Of a stretch of 64,000 nucleotides of DNA, positions 49,865 to 62,310 are shown one piece after another. Below the pieces are notes generated by a model, which was not told the origin of the DNA, did not search any database, and worked only from the letters and a program-made list of their open reading frames with translations. Position numbers and translations under genes: made by a program. The stretch is from Gemmatimonadaceae bacterium (lineage in GTDB: Bacteria; Gemmatimonadota; Gemmatimonadetes; Gemmatimonadales; Gemmatimonadaceae). The DNA lies in contig DASYSS010000046.1 in assembly GCA_036003045.1 (NCBI GenBank), positions 1-64,000 of the forward strand. Direction: 5' to 3'. Positions within the stretch are counted from its first letter, which is position 1; each line of letters starts with the position of its first letter.

Positions 49865-50275
49865 GTGAAACCAAAGACAGCTCTCGTCATCGGCGCCGCG
49901 TGCGCGCTGCTGTTCGGGGCGATGCTCCTCACGTCACCCGACGGAATCCTCCGCGGTCTCGGCCTCGAGCCGCACGGCGACGGAATTCTCGTTGCTCGGG
50001 ATATGTCGATCCTCGTGTTCGGATTTGCCGTGCTGGACTGGTTGGGTCGAAATGCCGAAGGGAAGATGTTGCGCACGATACTGATCGCGAACCTGTTCGT
50101 ACATGTTGCCGGGTTCGCGTTGCGCGGCGCCGGCATCGTGACGCATCAACTCCCCGGCGCGGCGTGGCCGAGCCTGGTGGCGCAGGCGGTGCTCGCGACG
50201 ATTTTCGGTTTGGCGCTCCTCGCGACGCGGGCACGCGATCGTCGACGCAGCGACAAGTTGATTCGAGCCGCCTGA
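49865..50275 (+). CDS. Small polytopic membrane protein of unknown function
   Basis: A 136-residue protein, GTG start, with four hydrophobic segments (TALVIGAACALLFGAMLLT, MSILVFGFAVLDWLG, TILIANLFVHVAGFAL and LVAQAVLATIFGLALLAT). Similar small proteins appear in many genomes as DUF4345-like or unnamed. It precedes coxI by 29 nt on the same strand, so it is probably the first gene of the respiratory operon. Confidence 0.6.
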   Translation: MKPKTALVIGAACALLFGAMLLTSPDGILRGLGLEPHGDGILVARDMSILVFGFAVLDWLGRNAEGKMLRTILIANLFVHVAGFALRGAGIVTHQLPGAAWPSLVAQAVLATIFGLALLATRARDRRRSDKLIRAA

Positions 50276-50304: not shown

Positions 50305-52302
50305 ATGCAGTCTCACATTGCCCGGAGTTTTCGCGCGGCGAACTCGAGCAATAGGCTAGACGTGCTGGCAAGCGACGGCGGCGTGAGCGGACTGCGCCCG
50401 GTGTCATCGGCAGCCGACGATATCGGCCGCGGCGACCCCGCGTTGAGCACCAGATTGACGGCGCTGTGGGAGACGCCCGACACGTGGGTCGCCCGGATCG
50501 CGACGGTCGATCACAAGACGCTCGGCAAACGATACGTCTACACCGCGTTCGTTTTTTTTGTGCTCGGTGGCATCGAGGCACTGCTGATCCGTCTGCAGCT
50601 GGCGCGGCCGGACAACACGCTGATCTCGCCAAACGCGTACAACCAGCTGATGACGATGCACGGCGTGACGATGATGTTCCTCTTCATCCAGCCGGTGCTG
50701 TCGGGGTTCAGCTTCTACTTGACGCCGCTCATGATCGGGGCGCGCGAGTTGGCGTTTCCCCGGCTGAATGCGTTTAGCTACTACGCGTTTCTGCTCGCCG
50801 GCGTCTTCATGTACGCGAGCTTCGCGATCGGCCAGGCGCCCAACGCCGGCTGGTTCAACTACACGCCGCTGGCCGACGCGGTTCACGACCCGGGACGGAA
50901 CATCGATTTCTACGTTCTCGGGCTCCTGTTCCTCGGCACGTCGACGACGGCGGGTGCGTTCAACTCGATCGTCACCATTCTCAAGCTGCGCGCGCCCGGC
51001 ATGTCGCTGTCGACCATGCCGCTCTTTCTCTGGAGCTCGTTGACGGTGTCGTTCGCCGTCGTGTTCTCGATGCCCGCCTTTACCGTCGCGCTCGGCTTCT
51101 TGGAGCTCGAGCGACAATGGCACTTCGCGTTCTTTGACGCGGCGCGCGGAGGCAGCGCGCTCCTCTGGCAGCATCTCTTCTGGGTCTTTGCGCATCCCTG
51201 GGTCTACATCGTGTTTCTGCCGGCGACCGGGATGTTGTCGATGGTCATTCCGACCTTCTGCCGCCGGCCCATCACCGGACACACGTACGTCGCACTGTCG
51301 ACCGTGGCCACCGGGGCGATCGGCTTTGGCGTGTGGGTGCATCACATGTTCGCGACCGGGCTGCCTCAGCTCGAGATGAGCTTCTTCGGCGGTGCGAGCA
51401 TGCTCATCTCGATTCCGAGCGCGGTCACGATCTTCGCGTGGCTGGCGACGATGTGGTACGGACGCGTCGTTCTCGCGACTCCGATGCTTTTCGCGCTGGC
51501 GTTCATCGTCCAGTTCGTCATCGGCGGCGTGAGCGGCGTGATGACCGCCGCGATTCCGTTCGATTGGCAGGCGACGGACACCTACTTCATCGTCGCGCAC
51601 ATTCACTACGTGTTGCTCGGCGGAAGCGTCTTTGGGTTGTTCGCCGGAGCGTACTACTGGGCGCCGAAAGCGTACGGCCACATGCCCAACGAGGCGGTGA
51701 GCAAACTCGCGTTCTGGCTCATGTTCGTCGGATTCAACGTCGGGTTTTTTCCGATGCACATGAGCGGGCTGCTCGGAATGCCGCGGCGTGTCTACACGTA
51801 CGCGGCGTCGAGCGGTCTCGCGGGACTCAACCTCATCTCGACCGTCGGTGCCTATTTGCTGGCGATCGGGATCGCGATCGGGCTTTGGAGTTTGTATCGC
51901 TGCCGCTCGCATGGGCCGGCGGCCGGCGCGAATCCGTGGGGAGCGGCGTCGTTGGAATGGCTCACCACGTCGCCGCCGCGGCCGTTCAACTTCGCTCACG
52001 TTCCTCTGGTCGACTCGCGCCATCCGCTTTGGGACGGTGCGTACTCCGTAGGCCCGTCACTCGACGGCGCGCGCCTTTCGCCGCTGACGACGGCAGTAGA
52101 CGGCGAGCCGGTGGCTCCGATCGCGCTCCCAGAAGACAACGTGTGGAGCGTGGCGATCGCCGTCGCGATGCTGGTCGCGTTCGCCGCGTTGCTGGCGCGT
52201 ATCGACGTGCTTGCGGCCGCCGGCTTCGTGACGACGCTGTTGTGCCTTGCCCGCTGGATGTGGCCGGCGAGCGCCCACACCCCGGCAGCCGCGGAAGCAT
52301 GA
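50305..52302 (+). CDS. ctaD: Cytochrome c oxidase subunit I (heme-copper oxidase, unusual proton-channel residues)
   Basis: A 665-residue catalytic subunit with about 12 core spans plus a C-terminal pair. Metal ligands are intact: the low-spin haem His in MTMHGVTMMF, CuB ligands His297 (HPWVY) and His346-His347 (HHMF), and the haem His pair in VAHIHYVL. The crosslinked Tyr301 is kept. The D-channel Glu of HPEVY is Trp299, the entry Asp is Glu148 (GARELAFPR), and the K-channel Lys is Thr375 (PSAVTIFAW). The start is ATG 50305; GTG 50302 is possible. It overlaps coxIII (ATGA). Terminal oxygen reduction is inferred from the retained active site. Confidence 0.92.
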   Translation: MQSHIARSFRAANSSNRLDVLASDGGVSGLRPVSSAADDIGRGDPALSTRLTALWETPDTWVARIATVDHKTLGKRYVYTAFVFFVLGGIEALLIRLQLARPDNTLISPNAYNQLMTMHGVTMMFLFIQPVLSGFSFYLTPLMIGARELAFPRLNAFSYYAFLLAGVFMYASFAIGQAPNAGWFNYTPLADAVHDPGRNIDFYVLGLLFLGTSTTAGAFNSIVTILKLRAPGMSLSTMPLFLWSSLTVSFAVVFSMPAFTVALGFLELERQWHFAFFDAARGGSALLWQHLFWVFAHPWVYIVFLPATGMLSMVIPTFCRRPITGHTYVALSTVATGAIGFGVWVHHMFATGLPQLEMSFFGGASMLISIPSAVTIFAWLATMWYGRVVLATPMLFALAFIVQFVIGGVSGVMTAAIPFDWQATDTYFIVAHIHYVLLGGSVFGLFAGAYYWAPKAYGHMPNEAVSKLAFWLMFVGFNVGFFPMHMSGLLGMPRRVYTYAASSGLAGLNLISTVGAYLLAIGIAIGLWSLYRCRSHGPAAGANPWGAASLEWLTTSPPRPFNFAHVPLVDSRHPLWDGAYSVGPSLDGARLSPLTTAVDGEPVAPIALPEDNVWSVAIAVAMLVAFAALLARIDVLAAAGFVTTLLCLARWMWPASAHTPAAAEA

Positions 52303-52904
52303 CGAGCGTCGCATGGACGAACGGTTCGACTTCGGGGCGGCGCGGAAGCGCGGAGGTCGGCCGGTGGGGGATGACCCTCTTCCTCATCAACGAAGGGACC
52401 CTCTTCGCCTGTCTGGTCAGCAGCTACTTCTATCTCGCCCTACGAAATCCCGCGTGGCCGCCCGCTGGGGTCGAGAAGCCGTCGCTTCCCATTCCGGCGG
52501 TAATGACGGCATTGCTGCTCTCGAGCAGTGGGGTGCTGGTGATCGCGGAGCGTGGATTCGCGGCGAGACGGCGGCTGCGCTACCGGGTCGGAGTTCTGCT
52601 CACCATCGCGCTCGGTACGGCTTTTCTCGTGCTCCAGGGCGTGGAGTACGCCGACAAACTCGAGCGCCTGCGCCCCTCGCAGAACTCGTACGCCTCGCTC
52701 TTCTACACGATTACCGGATTGCACGGCGTGCACGTGGCATTTGGTCTTCTGTTCCTGTTGTGGGCGCTGCTGCGAGAGGTGCGAAACACCGCTCACCCGC
52801 CGAAGTCGCTCGCCATCAGCAACGCCTCGTGGTACTGGCATTTCGTGGATGGCGTTTGGCTGGTGATCGTGACGTCGCTGTATCTCTCGCCGCGCTGGTC
52901 GTGA
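52299..52904 (+). CDS. ctaE: Cytochrome c oxidase subunit III
   Basis: A 201-residue subunit with five spans, the short form of the family. Conserved segments are WGMTLFLINEGTLFACLVSSYFYL, the LQGVEYADKL loop, GLHGVHVAFGLLFLLWAL and SWYWHFVDGVWLVIVTSLYL. The first segment keeps a Glu in a membrane context (INEGTLF). The ATG overlaps the coxI stop, and the next gene starts 1 nt after its own stop. It stabilises subunit I. Confidence 0.93.
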   Translation: MTSVAWTNGSTSGRRGSAEVGRWGMTLFLINEGTLFACLVSSYFYLALRNPAWPPAGVEKPSLPIPAVMTALLLSSSGVLVIAERGFAARRRLRYRVGVLLTIALGTAFLVLQGVEYADKLERLRPSQNSYASLFYTITGLHGVHVAFGLLFLLWALLREVRNTAHPPKSLAISNASWYWHFVDGVWLVIVTSLYLSPRWS

Positions 52905-52905
52905 C

Positions 52906-54096
52906 ATGACAATGCTCTTGGAGGTCGCGCGCTGGCCTGGCTGGTTTGACGACGGTGCGCCCACGGTTGCCGCCGCGGCTCTCGGCGTTGCGTACGCGAT
53001 CGCGGCGGGGGCGATGCGCCCTCGACGCGCGTGCGCCGTGACCAAAACTCAGCTGGCGTGCTTCTCCGCCGGTTTTCTCGTTCTCGCCGTCGCGCTCGTG
53101 TCTCCGCTCGAGCCGTTGAGCGAACGCCTGTTTGCCGCCCACATGATCCAGCACCTGCTGTTGGCGACGGTTGCGCCGCCTCTCCTCGTTCTCGGCGCGC
53201 CGACCGCCCGAGCGATTCGCCTCGCGGCGCCGACGATGGATCGGTGGCTGGGTGTTTTCGCCGAGAGAACGGGGCTCGGTCGCGCGTGGCGGTTTGCGTC
53301 TCTGCCTGTCGTCGCGTGCGGTCTACACGCTCTCGCCATCTGGGCATGGCACGCTCCCGCGCTTTACGAGCGTTCGCTGCGGAATGACGCCGTCCACGCC
53401 GTCCAACACGTGAGCTTGGTTGGGACGGGCGTGTGCCTGTGGTGGAGCATCCTTCGCCCCCGGAAGGCGGGGCTCGATGCCCGCCGCACGGCCTTCGCCC
53501 TGGGAATCATCACGATCTTTGCGACCGCGTTGCAAACCGGCGCGCTCGGCGCGCTCTTCGCGTTGTCGCGCCACGTCATCTATCCGTCGCAATCGACGGC
53601 GGCCGCCACGTGGGGTGTGACGCCGCTCGAGGATCAGCGGCTTGCCGGAATGCTGATGTGGATTCCCGGCGGAATCGTATATGTGATCATGATGAGTGTC
53701 CTGTTCGTCGCATGGCTGGACGGGCCGGCGCGCCGTGCGAGGACGGCGCTGACGGTCGCCTCCGGAGCGATCGGGCTGATGAGTTGCGGCCGCGCGGAAG
53801 CGCGAACCGTGCCTGGTGGCGACGCGGCGCGCGGCCGTGCGGCGATCGTGGCGGCGGGTTGTGGCGCGTGTCATGTCATCCCTGGAATTCAAGGCGCCGC
53901 CGGGCAGGTCGGCCCGCCGCTGAAAGGCGTGGGCGACCGTTCGATCGTCGGCGGCGTGCTGCCGAACACTCCGGACAATCTGATCGCGTGGCTCGAGGAT
54001 CCGCCTGCGTACGCGCCGCGCACGACCATGCCGAACCTCGGTCTCTCAGCGGCAGCCGCTCGCGACATCGCCGCGTACCTGTACTCGAAGAGGTGA
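52906..54096 (+). CDS. ctaG: CtaG (caa3-type oxidase assembly) fused to a C-terminal cytochrome c
   Basis: A 396-residue fusion. Residues 1-275 are a seven-span CtaG domain (AAHMIQHLLLATVAPPLLVLGAP, then AIWAWHAPALYE, AVQHVSLVGTG and GMLMWIPGGIVYV), which delivers copper to CuB-type centres. A hydrophobic stretch with a lipobox-like end (GAIGLMSC, residues 287-294) leads into a mono-haem cytochrome c domain with CGACH at 319-323 and an axial Met in TTMPNLG. The linker looks like a captured lipoprotein signal peptide, suggesting an ancestral gene fusion. The domain should sit in the periplasm and may carry electrons to the oxidase. Confidence 0.9.
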   Translation: MTMLLEVARWPGWFDDGAPTVAAAALGVAYAIAAGAMRPRRACAVTKTQLACFSAGFLVLAVALVSPLEPLSERLFAAHMIQHLLLATVAPPLLVLGAPTARAIRLAAPTMDRWLGVFAERTGLGRAWRFASLPVVACGLHALAIWAWHAPALYERSLRNDAVHAVQHVSLVGTGVCLWWSILRPRKAGLDARRTAFALGIITIFATALQTGALGALFALSRHVIYPSQSTAAATWGVTPLEDQRLAGMLMWIPGGIVYVIMMSVLFVAWLDGPARRARTALTVASGAIGLMSCGRAEARTVPGGDAARGRAAIVAAGCGACHVIPGIQGAAGQVGPPLKGVGDRSIVGGVLPNTPDNLIAWLEDPPAYAPRTTMPNLGLSAAAARDIAAYLYSKR

Positions 54097-54156: not shown

Positions 54157-55119
54157 TTGCTCTACGGGGCGGGCTGCGCGACGCCGCTCAGCACGTTCTC
54201 GCACGCCAGCGACGCGGCCGAGCGAACGGCGACCCTCTCGTGGCTCATGGTGGCGGTGTCGACCGCGATCTTCATCCTCGTTTGCGTCGTGATGGTCGCG
54301 GCGATCGCGCGCGGAAAGGGCAGCGAGCGAGGGATCGTGGGTCTCGAAGAGCGCGGACGCGGCTGGCTCCTCTGGGGTGGACTCGTGCTCCCCGTCGTCG
54401 TGCTCTCTCTCGTGTCGGTCATCGCCGTGCGCGTCATGCGTCAGCGAATTCCCGCAGAGAACGCGGTCACCATCCTCGTGACCGGCCATCAGTGGTGGTG
54501 GCAGTTGGACTACGACCTGGGCTCCGCTCAAACGCGTTTTCGTACGGCCAACGAGCTCCACGTTCCCGTCGGCCGCCCGGTCCTCCTGAAGCTGACGACG
54601 AGCGACGTGATTCACAGTTTCTGGGTTCCGTCGCTCGCCGGGAAGATGGATCTCCTCCCTGGCGACACGAACGAGCTGAGGGTCGAGGCACGCCGAGCCG
54701 GAACGTTCACCGGCGCGTGCGCGGAGTACTGCGGCGCGCAGCACGCGCACATGGCGATCACGGTGGTCGCTGAAGATTCGGCATCGTTCGCTCGTTGGGT
54801 AACGGCCGAGGCCGCGCCAAGTGTTTCGAGTCTGGACTCGACCGCCGCGGCGGGCCAGCAGCTGTTCACGAAGGGTGTGTGTGCGACGTGTCATACGGTT
54901 CGCGGCACCGACGCGCGTGGGCCGGTCGGCCCCGATCTCACGCACGTTGGAAGTCGACTGACGATCGCCGCCGGCTCGCTGACGAACTCCTTCGGCGCGA
55001 TCGAGGGATGGATCGCCGATCCGCAGGCCATCAAGCCCGGGGCGGCGATGCCGACGCTCAACGCGTACAGCGGGCCCGAGTTGCGCGCGCTCGCGGCCTA
55101 CGTGGCGAATCTTCGTTGA
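54157..55119 (+). CDS. ctaC: Cytochrome c oxidase subunit II with C-terminal cytochrome c (caa3-type)
   Basis: At least 320 residues. Two transmembrane segments precede a CuA domain with the first His in SDVIHSFWVP and the site CAEYCGAQHAHM, then a cytochrome c domain with CATCH and an axial Met in GAAMPTL. Electrons enter through the haem and pass to CuA. TTG 54157 is the first standard start, but the frame reads upstream to 54097 and encodes basic then hydrophobic residues (LRRSRVGRLVLPCAAIAALL) up to YGAGC, a good lipoprotein signal. The true start is therefore probably upstream and non-standard. It lies between ctaG and actA. Confidence 0.9.
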   Translation: MLYGAGCATPLSTFSHASDAAERTATLSWLMVAVSTAIFILVCVVMVAAIARGKGSERGIVGLEERGRGWLLWGGLVLPVVVLSLVSVIAVRVMRQRIPAENAVTILVTGHQWWWQLDYDLGSAQTRFRTANELHVPVGRPVLLKLTTSDVIHSFWVPSLAGKMDLLPGDTNELRVEARRAGTFTGACAEYCGAQHAHMAITVVAEDSASFARWVTAEAAPSVSSLDSTAAAGQQLFTKGVCATCHTVRGTDARGPVGPDLTHVGSRLTIAAGSLTNSFGAIEGWIADPQAIKPGAAMPTLNAYSGPELRALAAYVANLR

Positions 55120-55174
55120 CGACGAACGCGAGGGATCGATTCATGCAACGCCGGTGCAGGTCAAAATCGGAACG

Positions 55175-55834
55175 ATGCCAGCGCTTTTTCCGTGGTGGAC
55201 GAACTCCCTCGCGCGAGCATCGTTGCTCGTGGCTGCGCTGCTCGTGGTGGGACTTCCGGTGGCGCTGATGGCGTGGGTGCGCACGCCATTCGCGACCGGT
55301 GAGGGGGGGATGGTTGCCCAGCCGGTGCCCTTCGACCATCGCGTACACGCGCACTCGCTTCGCGTCGACTGCCGGTTTTGCCACGCGTCGGTCGAGCTCG
55401 CGGCGACGGCCGGTGTTCCTCCGACGACGGCGTGCGTCGGCTGCCACACCAAAGCGCTCCAGGAGTCTCCGACGTTCGCGCCCGTGCGAGCGAGTCTCGC
55501 GTCGGGCCGGCCGATCCCGTGGCGGCGCGTGAACGCGTTGCCGGACTTCGTGTACTTCGACCATTCGATCCACGTCGCCAAGGGCGTCGGATGCGAGTCG
55601 TGTCATGGACGCGTCGACGAAATGGCGCAGGTGTCGCAAGCGACGCCGTTGTCGATGGGATGGTGCGTCAGCTGCCATCGGAATCCGGTGGCGAGCCTGC
55701 GGCCGCGCGACGAAATCACGACGATGGGCTGGCTCGAAACGCACACCGCGCGATCTCGCGACTCGATCGGCGCGCGCCTGATGCACACGAACGGCGTATT
55801 GAGCCTCACGAGTTGTTCCACGTGCCACCGATGA
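55175..55834 (+). CDS. actA: Alternative complex III pentahaem cytochrome c subunit ActA
   Basis: A 219-residue protein with one N-terminal span (RASLLVAALLVVGLPVALMAW) and five CxxCH sites (CRFCH, CVGCH, CESCH, CVSCH, CSTCH). The family start MPALFPWWTNSLARA supports ATG 55175, with GGA 4 nt upstream; an in-frame GTG at 55154 is a longer alternative. ActA takes electrons from the ActB module and passes them to cytochrome c or oxidase. The stop overlaps actB (ATGA). Confidence 0.93.
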   Translation: MPALFPWWTNSLARASLLVAALLVVGLPVALMAWVRTPFATGEGGMVAQPVPFDHRVHAHSLRVDCRFCHASVELAATAGVPPTTACVGCHTKALQESPTFAPVRASLASGRPIPWRRVNALPDFVYFDHSIHVAKGVGCESCHGRVDEMAQVSQATPLSMGWCVSCHRNPVASLRPRDEITTMGWLETHTARSRDSIGARLMHTNGVLSLTSCSTCHR

Positions 55835-58662
55835 ACGACAGGGAGCGCGATGCGGGCCTCGACCGCCGCGAGTTTCTTCGGCTCGCCGGTGCAAGCATCG
55901 CGCTCGCCGGACTCGACGGATGCACTCGCATGCCGGCGGAAAACATTCTGCCGTACGTCGACAATCGTCCCGAGCTCACGCCGGGCGTCGGTCAGCACTA
56001 CGCGACCGCGATGTGTCTCGACGGAATCGCGACGGGGCTGATCGTCGAGAGCCACGAGGGACGGCCCACGAAGATCGAAGGCAATCCCGATCATCCCGCG
56101 AGCCTCGGCGCCAGCGGCCCGATCGAGCAGGCGTCGATTCTCCAACTGTACGATCCGGATCGCGCGAAGTTCGCCCGCATCGGAGAGAAACGGTCGAGCT
56201 GGAAGGAGATTCAAGCCGAACTGTCGCCGTCGAGCCTGGGAGCGCGGGTCGGATCTCGAGGGGAGCGACTGAGAATTCTCATCGAGCCCACGTCGTCGCC
56301 GCTCGAGGAAGAATTGCTGGCGAAGGTGTTGGAGCGGTATCCGGGCGCGACGGTTCACATGTATGCGCCGATGGTCGCGGAGCGCGCGACCTCGCCGCTC
56401 GTCCCGCACCACGACGTCTCTCGCGCCGACGTGATTCTTGCCGTCGACGCCGACTTCCTGGCCAGCGGTCCGTTTCACCTTCGATACGCTCGCCAGTTCG
56501 CCGACAATCGCCGCCTGAAGGCTCCGACCGACGCGATGAACCGCCTGTACGCGATCGAGTCGGATTTCACGCCGACGGGCTCGGCGGCCGACCACCGATT
56601 CGCCGTGCGACCACGAGACCGCGCGATGGTGCTGAGCGCTCTGATCGCTCAGGTCGCGAACTCGAGTGGGCCGAGCGCACCAGCGTGGATTGAGGGGGTC
56701 GCAAGAGACCTGAAAAGCCGGCCCGGTCGCAGCGTTGTCATCGGAGGCTCGCGTCTGTCGGCCGAAGAACGGAGCATCGTCGATCAGTTGAATGGCGCCG
56801 TTGGCGCGACCGGGGCAGGGGGTCTCGCGTGGCACGCTCCGAACCCGTTGATCGGCCGGTCGGTGCCGATCCGGTCCTTCGCCGAGCTGCTCGCCGAGCT
56901 GCACGCGAAGGTGGTCGACACGCTCATCGTGGTTGGAGGGAATCCGATTTACGCTTCGCCCGCCGCTCTCGCTCTCGCGTCGCTCATACGAAGCGTGCCC
57001 AACGTCGGCTACGTGGGGCTCTACGAGAACGAGACCGCGCGGGTCGCACGCTGGTTCGTTCCGCAATCCCACTATCTGGAGTCGTGGGGCGACGCGCGAG
57101 CGTACGACGGCACGCTTTCGATCGTGCAGCCGCTCGTCAGTCCTCTCTACGAATCGATCACGCCGCCGGAGCTGTACGCCGTGATCGCCGGTGTTGAAGA
57201 GAACGGTGGTGCGTACGCCCTTCTTCGCTCCTCGGTGAACACCCGCGTCTCGACTGGCGCCGATGCGGCGTGGACGTCCGCGCTGCGTCGCGGTGTGGTT
57301 GCCGACACGGCCTTCCCACCTGCCGCGGCATCGGCGGTGCCAGGCCCGGCCGTCGCGGCGACGGTTTTGCCGCCCACGGCGGAGAGCGGGGCCGGGGCCG
57401 GCATCGACGTTGTCTACTCGGCCGATCCGAAGGTGCACGACGGCTCGTTCTCGAACAACGCATGGCTTCAAGAGCTGCCGTCGCCGCTCACGCAGCTCGC
57501 GTGGGGCAACGCGGCGCTGATCAGTCCGACGACCGCGAGACGTGCGCGGCTCGAGAGCGGTGATGTCGTCACGCTGTCGGCGAAAGGCCGCTCGCTGACG
57601 ATTCCGGTGCTCGTCGTACCTGGCCACGCGGACGACGCGGCCACGCTGCACTTCGGCTACGGACGCGCAGGCGGCGAATCGGTCGCACGAGGCGTCGGCT
57701 CGAATGTGTATCAACTGTGGCCGACGTTCGATACGTGGGTCGAGCATGGCGCGACGATTGCGCCGACCGGGACCGCCACCCCGTTGGTGATTGCGCAAAC
57801 GCACGAGACGCTCGCGGCGAGCCGTCCGGTCCGAGCGGCGACGCTCGACGACTACCGAAAGGCGCCCGCGACCGTCGGCCTGCGGCCGGAGCGGGTCCTC
57901 TCGTTGTATCCGGAACCTCCGGAACGGCTGCTCGCCAACGGCACGAACCAGTGGGCGATGACGATCGACCTCGGGACGTGCATCGGATGCAACGCGTGCG
58001 TCATCGCCTGCCAGTCGGAGAACAACATTCCCGTCGTCGGCCCGGGCGACGCGCGCAACGGCCGAATCATGCACTGGATGCGGATCGACCGGTACTTCGA
58101 GGAACGAGAAAACGAGGTCGCCGCGCTCCTCCAGCCGATGCTCTGCCAACATTGTGAAAAAGCGCCGTGCGAGTACGTGTGCCCCGTCGAGGCGACGGTT
58201 CACAGCGCCGACGGGCTGAACGAGATGGTGTACAACCGCTGCGTCGGGACGCGCTTCTGCTCCAACAACTGTCCGTACAAGGTGCGCCATTTCAACTGGT
58301 TCGACTACAACGCGCGCCTCTCGGAAACGGAGTTGATGTCGAAGAACCCGAACGTCACGGTCCGCGAACGCGGCGTGATGGAGAAGTGCACGTTCTGCGT
58401 GCAACGAATTCGCGAGGCCGAGATCGGCGCGGGGCGCGAGGGTCGTCAGCTTCGCGGGTCGGAAGTGCGGACGGCGTGTCAACAAGCGTGCCCCACCAAC
58501 GCCATCGTTTTCGGTTCACTCACGGAAGACGGCTCGGCGGTCGTGCGTACGCGGAACGCGGCGCGCGCCTACACGGCGCTGCACGAGCTTGGCACGCAGC
58601 CCCGGGTGAGCTACCTGGCGCGCATTCGCAATCAGAACGCCGACCTGCCGCGCGAAGGATGA
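55831..58662 (+). CDS. actB: Alternative complex III iron-sulfur/molybdopterin-like subunit ActB
   Basis: A 943-residue subunit. A Tat-like N-terminus (LDRREFLRLAGASIALAGLDGC) leads into a molybdopterin-oxidoreductase-like domain lacking a metal cofactor site (about 60-680). The C-terminal ferredoxin-like domain holds the Cys sets CIGCNACVIAC, CQHCEKAPCEYVC, CVGTRFCSNNC, CTFC and CQQAC, enough for four clusters. The family usually has extra residues before the Tat motif; here only about 10 precede it. A low-complexity Ala/Pro/Gly insert lies around residues 490-520. ActB sits on the periplasmic side and passes electrons to ActA. Confidence 0.93.
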   Translation: MNDRERDAGLDRREFLRLAGASIALAGLDGCTRMPAENILPYVDNRPELTPGVGQHYATAMCLDGIATGLIVESHEGRPTKIEGNPDHPASLGASGPIEQASILQLYDPDRAKFARIGEKRSSWKEIQAELSPSSLGARVGSRGERLRILIEPTSSPLEEELLAKVLERYPGATVHMYAPMVAERATSPLVPHHDVSRADVILAVDADFLASGPFHLRYARQFADNRRLKAPTDAMNRLYAIESDFTPTGSAADHRFAVRPRDRAMVLSALIAQVANSSGPSAPAWIEGVARDLKSRPGRSVVIGGSRLSAEERSIVDQLNGAVGATGAGGLAWHAPNPLIGRSVPIRSFAELLAELHAKVVDTLIVVGGNPIYASPAALALASLIRSVPNVGYVGLYENETARVARWFVPQSHYLESWGDARAYDGTLSIVQPLVSPLYESITPPELYAVIAGVEENGGAYALLRSSVNTRVSTGADAAWTSALRRGVVADTAFPPAAASAVPGPAVAATVLPPTAESGAGAGIDVVYSADPKVHDGSFSNNAWLQELPSPLTQLAWGNAALISPTTARRARLESGDVVTLSAKGRSLTIPVLVVPGHADDAATLHFGYGRAGGESVARGVGSNVYQLWPTFDTWVEHGATIAPTGTATPLVIAQTHETLAASRPVRAATLDDYRKAPATVGLRPERVLSLYPEPPERLLANGTNQWAMTIDLGTCIGCNACVIACQSENNIPVVGPGDARNGRIMHWMRIDRYFEERENEVAALLQPMLCQHCEKAPCEYVCPVEATVHSADGLNEMVYNRCVGTRFCSNNCPYKVRHFNWFDYNARLSETELMSKNPNVTVRERGVMEKCTFCVQRIREAEIGAGREGRQLRGSEVRTACQQACPTNAIVFGSLTEDGSAVVRTRNAARAYTALHELGTQPRVSYLARIRNQNADLPREG

Positions 58663-60083
58663 CCGCGACCTCCGTCGAACCGCGAGCGGCGGAGCAGCGA
58701 CCAGCCGAACCCGACGCGCCCGAATGGCCGGTCTTCCGGTTCAAGGGAACCGACGAGCAGTTGACCGATCTGCTCCTTGCGCCTCTGCGCGGTGGAGGGC
58801 CGATCTGGTGGGCGTTGTTCATCGTTTCTTTGGTGGGCGCCGGGCTGTTCGTCGTTTCCATGTGGGTTACTGTCGCCAAGGGCATCGGCACGTGGGGGAA
58901 CAACATCCCGGTCGCCTGGGCATTCGCGATCACCGACTTCGTTTGGTGGATCGGGATCGGACATGCCGGGACGTTCATCTCCGCGTTCTTGTTGCTGCTC
59001 AACCAGCACTGGCGCGCGTCGATCAATCGGATCGCCGAGGCGATGACGATCTTCGCGCTGATGCAGGCGGGATTGTTCCCGCTGCTGCATCTGGGTCGGC
59101 CGTGGTTCTTCTATTGGCTGATTCCGTACCCGGCGACGATGGGCGTGTGGCCCAACTTCAAGAGCGCACTGCCATGGGACATCGCGGCGGTCGCCACGTA
59201 TTTCACCGTGTCGTTGCTCTTTTGGTATGCCGGCCTGGTGCCCGACCTCGCGACCGCTCGCGATTGGTCGCGTTCGCGGGCCGCGCGGATCGCATACGGT
59301 GTCTTCGCGCTCGGATGGAGGGGGTCGAGCTTCGAATGGCGGCGTCACCGGCTCGCGCTCGTGCTGCTGGCCGGGCTCGCCACGCCGTTGGTCGTGTCGG
59401 TGCACAGCGTCGTGAGTCTCGACTTCGCGATCGCGCAACTGCCCGGTTGGCATTCGACGATTTTCCCGCCGTATTTCGTCGTCGGCGCCATCTACTCGGG
59501 GTTCGCGATGGTGATACTGCTCTTGCTCCCCTTGCGCGCCGCATACCGCCTCGAAGACGTGATCACCGAGCGACACTTGAACGCGATGGCCAAGCTCATC
59601 CTGACGATGGGCCTGCTGCTCGCCTACGCGTACGTGGTCGAGCTGTTCGTCGCCTGGTACAGCGGCGATCCGAACGAGCGATTCACGTTCCTGCATGAGC
59701 GGCCGTTCGGGACATACTCGCTGATTTACTGGATCATGATCGCATGCAACGTCGTCGCGCCGCACGTCTTCTGGTGGAAGCGATGCCGAACGAGCGTGGC
59801 CGTGCTGTTCGCGGCCAGTCTGGCGATTCTCGTCGGGATGTGGCTCGAGCGATTCGTGATCATCGTCGTATCGCTCCACCGGGATTTCCTCTCGTCGAGC
59901 TGGCACTTCTATCGTCCGACCTGGGTCGATCTGGGGCTGTTGTTCGGCAGCATCGGTTTTTTCGGCGTGCTGTTTCTGTTGTTCGTTCGCTTCGTGCCGT
60001 TCGTGGCGATCAGCGAAGTCAAGCGATTGCGACACGAGCTGGCCGCGAATCGCGGGCGCGAGATCGGTCTTCCGCATGCGTGA
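58659..60083 (+). CDS. actC: Alternative complex III quinol-binding membrane subunit ActC (NrfD-like)
   Basis: A 474-residue NrfD/PsrC-family protein with ten spans after a polar leader of 45 residues. Conserved segments are AFAITDFVWWIGIGHAGTFISAFLLL, FPLLHLGRPWFFYWLIPYP and VVSLDFAIAQLPGWHSTIFPPYF. The region forms the quinol site facing the periplasm. It overlaps actB by ATGA and actD by 8 nt. Confidence 0.95.
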   Translation: MTATSVEPRAAEQRPAEPDAPEWPVFRFKGTDEQLTDLLLAPLRGGGPIWWALFIVSLVGAGLFVVSMWVTVAKGIGTWGNNIPVAWAFAITDFVWWIGIGHAGTFISAFLLLLNQHWRASINRIAEAMTIFALMQAGLFPLLHLGRPWFFYWLIPYPATMGVWPNFKSALPWDIAAVATYFTVSLLFWYAGLVPDLATARDWSRSRAARIAYGVFALGWRGSSFEWRRHRLALVLLAGLATPLVVSVHSVVSLDFAIAQLPGWHSTIFPPYFVVGAIYSGFAMVILLLLPLRAAYRLEDVITERHLNAMAKLILTMGLLLAYAYVVELFVAWYSGDPNERFTFLHERPFGTYSLIYWIMIACNVVAPHVFWWKRCRTSVAVLFAASLAILVGMWLERFVIIVVSLHRDFLSSSWHFYRPTWVDLGLLFGSIGFFGVLFLLFVRFVPFVAISEVKRLRHELAANRGREIGLPHA

Positions 60084-60624
60084 CGCTCACTGGCCGTCCG
60101 GAGCCATCGCCGCGGAGTTCGAGGACGCGGAGTCGCTCGTTCGCGCCACTCGCGAGCTGGATCGCGCCGGGTATGCGAAGGTCGAGGCGTACTCGCCGTA
60201 CCCGATCCTCGAGGTTGAACGGCCGCTCTTCGCACGGCCCTCGCGCCTTCCCGTCGTCGTCTTTCTCGCCGGGCTCGCCGGCGCGGTACTCGGCTACTGG
60301 ATTCAATGGTACGCGAACGCCGTCTCGTATCCGCTGAACATCGGCGGGCGACCGGCCCACGCGACGCCGGCGTTCATCATCCCGACGTTCGAGGCGACGG
60401 TGTTGTGCGCTTCGCTCGCCGCTTTCGTCGGCCTGTTCTGGTTGTTGCGCTTGCCCCGGCCGTGGCATCCGATGTTCGAGGCGGACGGCTTCGAGCGCGC
60501 GTCGATCGACCGGTGCTGGGTCGCGATCGACATGACCGACGACCGCGTGGATGCGCGTCGAACCGCCGCCGACCTGGCGGTGCTCGGCGCGCGCCATGTC
60601 GTTCGCGTGCCGCCGCTCGACTGA
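60076..60624 (+). CDS. actD: Alternative complex III subunit ActD (DUF3341)
   Basis: A 182-residue DUF3341 protein with a soluble N-terminal domain (GAIAAEFEDAESLVRATREL) and two spans (LPVVVFLAGLAGAVLGYWIQWY and TVLCASLAAFVGLFWLL). The length and pair of spans match ActD. It lies in the membrane next to ActC and ActE. Its start overlaps actC by 8 nt. Confidence 0.93.
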   Translation: MRDAHWPSGAIAAEFEDAESLVRATRELDRAGYAKVEAYSPYPILEVERPLFARPSRLPVVVFLAGLAGAVLGYWIQWYANAVSYPLNIGGRPAHATPAFIIPTFEATVLCASLAAFVGLFWLLRLPRPWHPMFEADGFERASIDRCWVAIDMTDDRVDARRTAADLAVLGARHVVRVPPLD

Positions 60625-60625
60625 C

Positions 60626-61237
60626 ATGTCTGCGCGGATGAGCCGCATCCTCTCGCGCGCGCGCCTGGCGGCGGTGGCCGCCACACTCGCGTGCTGGCAC
60701 ACCTCGAGTCGCCGAGAAGCGCGCGACTTCGAGCGCATGCGGCGCCAGCAGCGGTACGACGCATATGACGCCAGCGGATTCTTCCCCAACGGGGCTGTCA
60801 TGCAGGCGCCGCCGGCGAACACGATCGCGCGAGATGACGGGCCCCCACGCCTGCCGGTCAACGGCGCGAAGCAGTACGCCATCTCGTGCGCTCCTTGTCA
60901 CGGGGCCGGGGGATTCGGTGGCGGCCCGATCGCGCCAAACCTCGGAGAGCGGCGGCCGCCGTCGCTTCGCACGGTTCGCGTGTCGAGTATGTCCTCCGCC
61001 GCGCTCATGACCATTGTGACGGATGGGATCGGGCGAATGCCGCCGCTCGGCTGGCAGTTGCCGCCCGGCGCACGCACGGCAGTGCTCGCGTACATGCAGA
61101 CCATCGCGAGCTCGCCGCGCACTCTCGCAACCTTCGCCGATTCCGCGCAAGCAGCTCGTCTCCGCGCGCTCGACTCGTTGGAGAGGGCAGGCGCGAGCGT
61201 CCGAACGATCCTTCAGCTCCCGCTACCGCACCCATGA
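60626..61237 (+). CDS. actE: Alternative complex III monohaem cytochrome c subunit ActE (lipoprotein)
   Basis: A 203-residue lipoprotein (signal peptide ending VAATLAC) with one haem site CAPCH and axial Met in GRMPPLGW. ActE carries one haem in ACIII and is exposed to the periplasm. The start is the ATG 1 nt after the actD stop. Its stop overlaps actF (ATGA). Confidence 0.92.
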   Translation: MSARMSRILSRARLAAVAATLACWHTSSRREARDFERMRRQQRYDAYDASGFFPNGAVMQAPPANTIARDDGPPRLPVNGAKQYAISCAPCHGAGGFGGGPIAPNLGERRPPSLRTVRVSSMSSAALMTIVTDGIGRMPPLGWQLPPGARTAVLAYMQTIASSPRTLATFADSAQAARLRALDSLERAGASVRTILQLPLPHP

Positions 61238-62310
61238 CTGGCGCCCGAGTCTCGAACCGCTTGGCGACCTTCGCGACCATATGCGTTGCGGTGACGATCG
61301 CCGGGCTCGTCTTGGCGGCGCGGCAGACGGCGGCCGTGTTGCTCACCGCGTATGTCGCGACATTGAGCGTCGTGCTCGGCACGATGGCGATGACGATGAT
61401 CGCCCAACTCACCACGGCGACCTGGTTCGCTTCGTTCGAGCAACCCGCAAAGCGGATCCTGGCTTCCTTACCGGTGCTCGCGCTGCTCGGCGTGGTTCCG
61501 GTTGCCGTCGCGATTTGGAATTACACGAGCTCGCCTTCGCCGCCAGGCTCGGCGCGCGCGCAATACCTCGCGCCCTGGTTCGTTGTGTCGAGAGCCGTCG
61601 TGTATTGGGCCATCTGGCTGGTGATGGGGCAGCGACTTCTTTCCTCGAAGCGGTCGTCGCGATTCGCGTCGGGCGGACTCGTCGTGCTCGCGATCACGAT
61701 GACCTTCGCGTCGTTCGACTGGATGATGTCGCTGTCGGTCGGATGGTACTCGACGGTCTATGGCGTCTACTGGTTCGCGGGCGGGATGATCGGGGCGCTC
61801 GCGCTCCTGGCGATTCTCGCGCGCTCCAGGTCGGACGACTATCCCGTTGCGCGAAACCGTTGGCTCGCGCTCGGCAGCCTGCTCCTGACGTTCGTGCTGT
61901 TCTGGGCCTACATCGGCTTCGCGCAGTACATCGTCATCTGGAGCGGCGACATCCCGCGCGAAGTCACGTGGTATGTCGAACGCGCGCACGGCGCGTGGGG
62001 CGGCGTCGCCCTCGCGATCCTGATCAGTGGCGGCGCTATTCCGTTTCTCATTCTCCTATTGGGCCGGACTAGACGAAGCGGCGGCGCGCTAACCGTTCTT
62101 TGTGCGCTGCTGCTCGCGTTCCACTACGTCGATTCGTATTGGCTCGTGATGCCCAATCTCGCCCGCGTCGACGCGTGGACGATCGTACTTTCGGGGTTTT
62201 CCCTCGGCGCGGTGATCGCCGCCTCGATGCTCCTCGCACGAATGAGAACGGCAGGGGTCCGACAAGCCCTCTCCGCGATGCCGACGCGCGCCCGGCCACC
62301 GAGGACGTGA
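61234..62310 (+). CDS. actF: Alternative complex III membrane subunit ActF
   Basis: A 358-residue protein with about ten spans, related to the ActC fold but shorter. Conserved segments are FASFDWMMSLSVGWYSTVYGVYWFAG and LFWAYIGFAQYIVIWSGDIP, then FHYVDSYWLVMPNL. ActF lies next to ActC and may help translocate protons. It is the last act gene; the stop TGA lies inside the palindrome at 62306-62321. Confidence 0.93.
   Translation: MTGARVSNRLATFATICVAVTIAGLVLAARQTAAVLLTAYVATLSVVLGTMAMTMIAQLTTATWFASFEQPAKRILASLPVLALLGVVPVAVAIWNYTSSPSPPGSARAQYLAPWFVVSRAVVYWAIWLVMGQRLLSSKRSSRFASGGLVVLAITMTFASFDWMMSLSVGWYSTVYGVYWFAGGMIGALALLAILARSRSDDYPVARNRWLALGSLLLTFVLFWAYIGFAQYIVIWSGDIPREVTWYVERAHGAWGGVALAILISGGAIPFLILLLGRTRRSGGALTVLCALLLAFHYVDSYWLVMPNLARVDAWTIVLSGFSLGAVIAASMLLARMRTAGVRQALSAMPTRARPPRT

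Follow-up and report, generated by a model that had tools for sequence, protein, structure and literature searches.

The window analysed here, a stretch of 64,000 nucleotides from a Gemmatimonadaceae bacterium, encodes on its forward strand a cytochrome c oxidase subunit I (coxA/ctaD, HPW type; 665 amino acids; 50305..52302) belonging to a clade in which the D-channel glutamate appears to have been replaced once by tryptophan and never regained, and in which the K-channel, to judge from the residues present, has been dismantled in both subunits. That it is a caa3-type A-family cytochrome c oxidase and that the HPW enzymes form a clade can be regarded as almost certain. As an overall explanation we propose, with roughly even confidence, that this oxidase would take up protons through the D-path only, with pumping reduced or absent. 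The D-channel glutamate and the K-channel lysine are the textbook proton-pump residues, and what is understood of them comes largely from mutants that cripple the enzyme; with a clade that occurs in nature, is maintained by selection and has neither residue, the need for each can be tested directly.

The subunit I protein and its channel residues

The open reading frame translates to 665 residues with no internal stops, matches PF00115 (E=8e-144) and corresponds to the A-family fold. The translation contains H119, E148 (in GARELAF), H297-P298-W299-V300-Y301, H346/H347, T375 (in IPSAVTIF), H432 and H434, and thus has all six histidine ligands and the helix VI tyrosine of the A-type heme-copper oxygen reductases, in agreement, residue for residue, with the original prediction that all haem and CuB ligands and the active-site Tyr301 are kept. 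The motif itself (51193..51207) retains the CuB ligand H297 and the cross-link Tyr301, which lies in helix VI, unlike that of the C type, where the cross-link tyrosine is in helix VII. Phmmer comparisons with PDB sequences recovered A-type chains at E-values of about 1e-134, as against 8e-5 for ba3, and in these alignments, ungapped in the vicinity, W299 falls on the glutamate of GHPEVY and T375 on the lysine of helix VIII. The proposed replacements of the D-channel glutamate of HPEVY by Trp299 and of the K-channel lysine by Thr375 were thereby put to the test and upheld. In bovine numbering, for which the reference sequence is identical to 1occ over its full length, W299 (codon 51199-51201) corresponds to E242, T375 (51427..51429) to K319, Y301 to Y244 and E148 (50746..50748) to D91, the last confirming the substitution of the D-channel entry aspartate by glutamate. 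Elsewhere in the protein, F137 (50713..50715) stands in place of the D-channel asparagine N80, Q129 (50689..50691) is at M71, and T215 (50947..50949) and T247 (51043..51045), at I158 and I190, are threonines characteristic of the HPW clade; all these codons are on the forward strand.

The YS motif of A2-type oxidases is absent, as had been noted, with F295-A296 occupying the Tyr-Ser positions, and since neither this motif nor the gate glutamate remains, the view that any pumping would have to rely on other residues stands. The broader statement that the enzyme lacks both canonical proton-channel residues is sound for the K-channel, which is gone in both subunits, but overstates the case for the D-channel, where the greater part of the lower residues (Y77, N155, S158, S213, T214 and N220) is kept, along with a carboxylate, Glu148, at the entry; in the rest of the A1 D-channel the differences lie at Glu148 and Phe137. 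In the R. sphaeroides oxidase without Glu286, a glutamate engineered at the position of Q129 reportedly restored pumping; the window protein has a glutamine there, a residue fixed only in the window subclade. As a separate observation, an arginine, R76 (50530-50532), occupies the bovine Leu18 position beside the D-channel tyrosine; its conservation among HPW enzymes is 98%, and none of the canonical enzymes in the comparison has it.

Relatives from other assemblies that are 65-72% identical to the window protein have the same states, with the tryptophan and the entry glutamate fixed and threonine or glutamine at the lysine site, and this recurrence excludes chance or assembly error as their source. 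The gene is under purifying selection (dN 0.22, dS 0.83, dN/dS about 0.27 for the window against relative L004). A structure model derived from 34 sequences (mean pLDDT 80.7, pTM 0.85) matches R. sphaeroides subunit I with a Z of 46.9 and an rmsd of 1.7 over 495 residues, other A-family enzymes giving similar values, and Foldseek is in accord with the A-family fold; the model settles the fold of subunit I but not a proton path.

Gene cluster and genome context

Downstream of coxA on the same strand are coxC (subunit III, 201 amino acids; 52299..52904; PF00510, E=2e-30), a gene for a Caa3_CtaG copper assembly factor with a C-terminal cytochrome c domain (52906..54096; PF09678, E=4e-54; PF00034, E=2e-6) and coxB (subunit II; 54157..55119; PF00116, PF00034), whose product has intact CuA ligands, no K-channel-mouth glutamate and a C-terminal cytochrome c domain. 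These are followed, again on the forward strand, by a full alternative complex III set comprising an ActA-like multihaem cytochrome c (55154..55834; PF14522 and related families), an ActB-like iron-sulphur protein (55831..58662; Fer4 families), the NrfD-like ActC (58659..60083; PF03916, E=2e-21), ActD (60076..60624; PF11821, E=6e-55), an ActE-like cytochrome c (60551..61237; PF13442; a listed ORF of uncertain start) and an ActF-like membrane protein (61234..62310), which was assigned by its position and a homologue in the Act cluster of locus L191 and whose start was placed by eye. Act genes adjoin the oxidase in the window and at loci L191 and L195, all from the window subclade, while four other members of this subclade have cox genes with no Act genes nearby; hence, adjacency to Act genes does not characterise the HPW clade. 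Most HPW loci examined likewise show none in the few kilobases of flanking sequence covered.

The genome, of 5.37 Mb, encodes on another contig a second, ordinary subunit I with GHPEVY and the lysine. It also has a CtaA gene, matched as two pieces of one frame, and, in addition to the ActD gene of the window (60106-60600), a second copy (L211, on another contig), which makes it probable that there are two alternative complex III loci; a Pfam search of the genome found no full-length cytochrome b. The fusion of CtaG to cytochrome c seems to recur in some relatives within the subclade, whereas on Rhizobium plasmids a separate cytochrome c gene follows CtaG. Directly upstream of coxA lies a 136-residue ORF (49865-50275) for an apparent membrane protein without Pfam matches.

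Phyletic distribution and phylogeny

A search with the HPW motif pattern picked up 24 of the 395 Gemmatimonadota genomes, and a scan of named genomes yielded at least 118 stretches, which, among the matches listed, come from Beta-, Alpha- and Gammaproteobacteria (Pseudomonadota), Gemmatimonadota, Acidobacteriota, Myxococcota and Actinomycetota; the records from the latter two phyla and most of those from Acidobacteriota are metagenome bins, so that single assignments could be wrong. The nearest loci to the window in the named collections are, among the matches listed, bins of Gemmatimonadota. The rows of the motif scan were picked by the motif and have 100% tryptophan by construction, the relatives of the window protein and a scan with the HPxVY pattern being the only sets free of this bias. 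The latter, over 121 genomes of the phylum, gave glutamate in most of the matches listed, tryptophan in 11, leucine in 3, which are probably of the B-type, and aspartate in 1. Every Trp-bearing genome among these listed matches also has a Glu-bearing subunit I, on account of which the HPW enzyme looks to be accessory.

A tree of 67 subunit I proteins, constructed with columns 242, 319, 91 and 80 masked, recovered a Lys-less superclade (support 100/99) within which the HPW clade is nested (100/97), next to a sister Lys-less clade that keeps glutamate or aspartate (100/97). The window protein groups with the other HPW proteins, in a subclade of its own relatives (100/100). References outside the superclade are thin in this tree, numbering 18 sequences with A2 represented by one. 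The gain of tryptophan from glutamate and the loss of the lysine each require one change, and a tree of 86 rows agrees with that of 67. The suspected subgroup of CtaG-linked HPW enzymes does therefore exist: it is monophyletic, spans at least five phyla and has the usual gene order coxB-coxA-coxC-CtaG. In the sister clade Glu242 stays, Asp91 is often asparagine or serine, and Asn163 is often glutamate. Its members L180, L181, L182, L183, L184, L018, L019, L023 and L025 present a D-channel rebuilt at its other end.

Conservation of channel residues across the HPW clade

Across the 111 other HPW rows the D-channel positions are close to invariant (Asp91 99%, Asn98 100%, Asn163 100%, Tyr19 99%, Ser156 100%), Asn80 is present in 87%, and the Lys319 site is occupied by alanine (70%), glutamine (16%) or serine (8%). 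Mapped on the tree, the lysine site has changed 11 times within the clade and D91 twice, while Trp242, Asn98, Asn163 and Tyr19 have not changed at all. Thr158 and Thr190 (bovine numbering) occur together in 106 of 119 HPW rows and in none of the Glu-bearing ones. Neither in the HPW enzymes nor in the window subclade is there a newly conserved buried acid, ruling out a relocated acid in place of the glutamate. The window subclade is more derived than the other HPW enzymes (D91E, N80F, M71Q); all 8 of its rows, including a copy of the window itself, have Phe80, Glu91, Gln71 and Phe69. In subunit II the glutamate at the mouth of the K-channel (bovine Glu62) is absent from the larger Lys-less clade and the CuA ligands are intact; because the helix in question aligns only loosely, this absence was judged on the sequences themselves.

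Predicted proton path and competing explanations

The active site read from the sequence is that of an O2 reductase, with three CuB histidines, the haem histidine and the cross-link tyrosine; subunit II carries the CuA ligands and a fused cytochrome c. Electrons would pass from the alternative complex III encoded next door to the fused cytochrome c, and thence through CuA and haem a to haem a3-CuB. All substrate protons would enter from the inside via the lower D-channel (Glu148, Tyr77, Asn155, Asn220, Ser158, Ser213, Thr214), move beyond Trp299 along a chain of water flanked by the newly gained Thr215 and Thr247, and from there go straight to the active site. With no glutamate to split protons between pump and chemistry, the gradient would be generated mainly by charge separation, and pumping would fall below one proton per electron, perhaps to none (for the roles of the D- and K-channels in A enzymes, see PMC8079940). 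Uptake by the D-path only is the simplest reading, and a fairly probable one, with the K-channel lost from both subunits and the lower part of the D-channel preserved. The B and C oxidases use a K-type path only, and a D-path-only oxidase would be their reverse. That pumping is reduced or absent is our leading inference, favoured by a little over its negation, as tryptophan, unlike glutamate, is unable to take up a proton and hand it on. The kept pair of D-channel asparagines, which is tied to pump coupling in A1 mutants, counts against lost pumping, and some coupling may remain. The D-path step is least certain in the window subclade owing to the further changes N80F, D91E and M71Q; here phenylalanine at Asn80 together with the glutamate at the entry could block the path.

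The most substantial competitor, though an unlikely one, holds that pumping continues via the D-channel at about one proton per electron, the glutamate being replaced by a gate composed of Thr214, Thr215, Thr247, Trp299 and water. It would account for the near-invariance of the lower D-channel, both gate asparagines included, and for the tie between the threonine pair and the tryptophan, and it has a precedent in the A2 oxidases, which are of the A type with a working D-channel though tyrosine replaces the glutamate (PMC3084760); yet position 242 here has no protonatable group, and the HPW clade offers no newly conserved buried acid to make up for it. The related proposition of a clade of D-path-only A-family oxidases in at least five phyla that continue to pump by a Glu-free gate of tryptophan and two threonines is also doubtful; if Glu-free pumping were true, neither the K-channel nor the D-channel glutamate would be needed for redox-driven proton pumping. 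Delivery of protons by a K path like that of the B-type, through Ser372 and Thr375 where ba3 has Ser309 and Thr312, seems improbable: while the P-S-x-x-T register matches ba3, Ser312 and Tyr301 are kept, and the D-path is altered in the window subclade, Ser312 stands where the B type has its third residue (Tyr248 in ba3), so that the B-type pattern is not reproduced. Moreover, position 375 is glutamine in 38% of the subclade and usually alanine in other HPW enzymes, in keeping with its inconstancy over the clade, and the mouth glutamate of subunit II is missing.

Two further explanations question the function of the gene itself. Other heme-copper enzymes that reduce nitric oxide are also without the channel residues (PMC8756737), but the window protein keeps Tyr301 and all ligands, where the nitric oxide reductases have glutamate, asparagine, glutamine or aspartate at the tyrosine position (PMC8756737 Table A4), making a nitric oxide reductase or another heme-copper activity very improbable. 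Tyr301 rules out the c, q, s, e and g kinds of nitric oxide reductase, which have a residue other than tyrosine (PMC8756737), and the window gene is not the sNOR found in ammonia oxidisers, which has been described as resembling the B type and as having asparagine at that position. That the gene is degenerate and on its way out is hardly credible: the loss of key residues and its status as an accessory copy beside a canonical oxidase could be so construed, but a dN/dS well below one, the retention of all ligands, the intact operon and the spread of the clade over several phyla are against it.

Relationship to previously described oxidases

With the A1 enzymes (R. sphaeroides, P. denitrificans, bovine) the window protein shares the fold (Z about 46), the metal ligands, the cross-link tyrosine and most of the lower D-channel residues, but it lacks the D-channel glutamate, the K-channel lysine and the subunit II mouth glutamate, and its subclade further differs in having phenylalanine for Asn80 and glutamate for Asp91. 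Among the residues that define A1 in P. denitrificans (Glu278, Lys354, Asp124, Asn113, Asn131, Asn199, Tyr35, Ser134, Ser193; Sousa 2011, PMC3084760), Glu278 and Lys354 are represented in the window by Trp299 and Thr375. Like the A2 enzymes of the Rhodothermus marinus type (YSHP), it has no glutamate and is of caa3 architecture with a fused cytochrome c; unlike them, it has F295-A296-H297-P298 in helix VI, without Tyr-Ser, and the lysine is also gone. The B-type ba3 of Thermus thermophilus resembles it in the absence of the D-channel glutamate and in serine and threonine at K-channel positions 309/312, but the window sequence is far closer to the A type, has serine as the Tyr248 equivalent and possesses the lower D-channel residues. 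COX operon type a-I of Degli Esposti (PMC4013037, PMC6431628) likewise has cox genes beside alternative complex III genes, with CtaG; its subunit I is given as A2, whereas that of the window lacks both the YS motif and the lysine. An identification of the HPW enzyme with CoxN of coxMNOP was not adopted; R. etli carries further unnamed oxidase operons.

Loss of the K-channel has been described in archaeal A-family oxidases, with seven independent losses inferred (PMC8239418), in contrast to which the present case is one bacterial superclade whose HPW part is also without the D-channel glutamate. In the survey by Sousa and co-workers, only 4 of 1216 enzymes lacked the residues that mark their class, and these were placed in the B type (PMC3084760). 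A search of literature texts for HPWVY, the key classification papers being outside its scope, gave no relevant match and one unrelated one, and a phrase search for oxidases said to be without a K- or D-channel had no hits. Within the literature so covered the HPW group is novel, and no described subgroup with known channels was found to include the window protein.

Classification by channel residues could misfile the HPW enzymes, and genome-based counts of "aa3-type, pumping" oxidases could overstate energy yield. HPW enzymes occur in Paraburkholderia, Methylocella, Aurantimonas and Nitrosospira, all genera of which strains are in culture, and they come paired with the sister clade, in which the glutamate is kept and the D-channel entry is changed. 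Tandem operons in which an HPW oxidase lies beside a Glu-bearing Lys-less oxidase were observed in one Gemmatimonadota genome (L196:6889-18142) and in Methylobacter (L061:518-8000).
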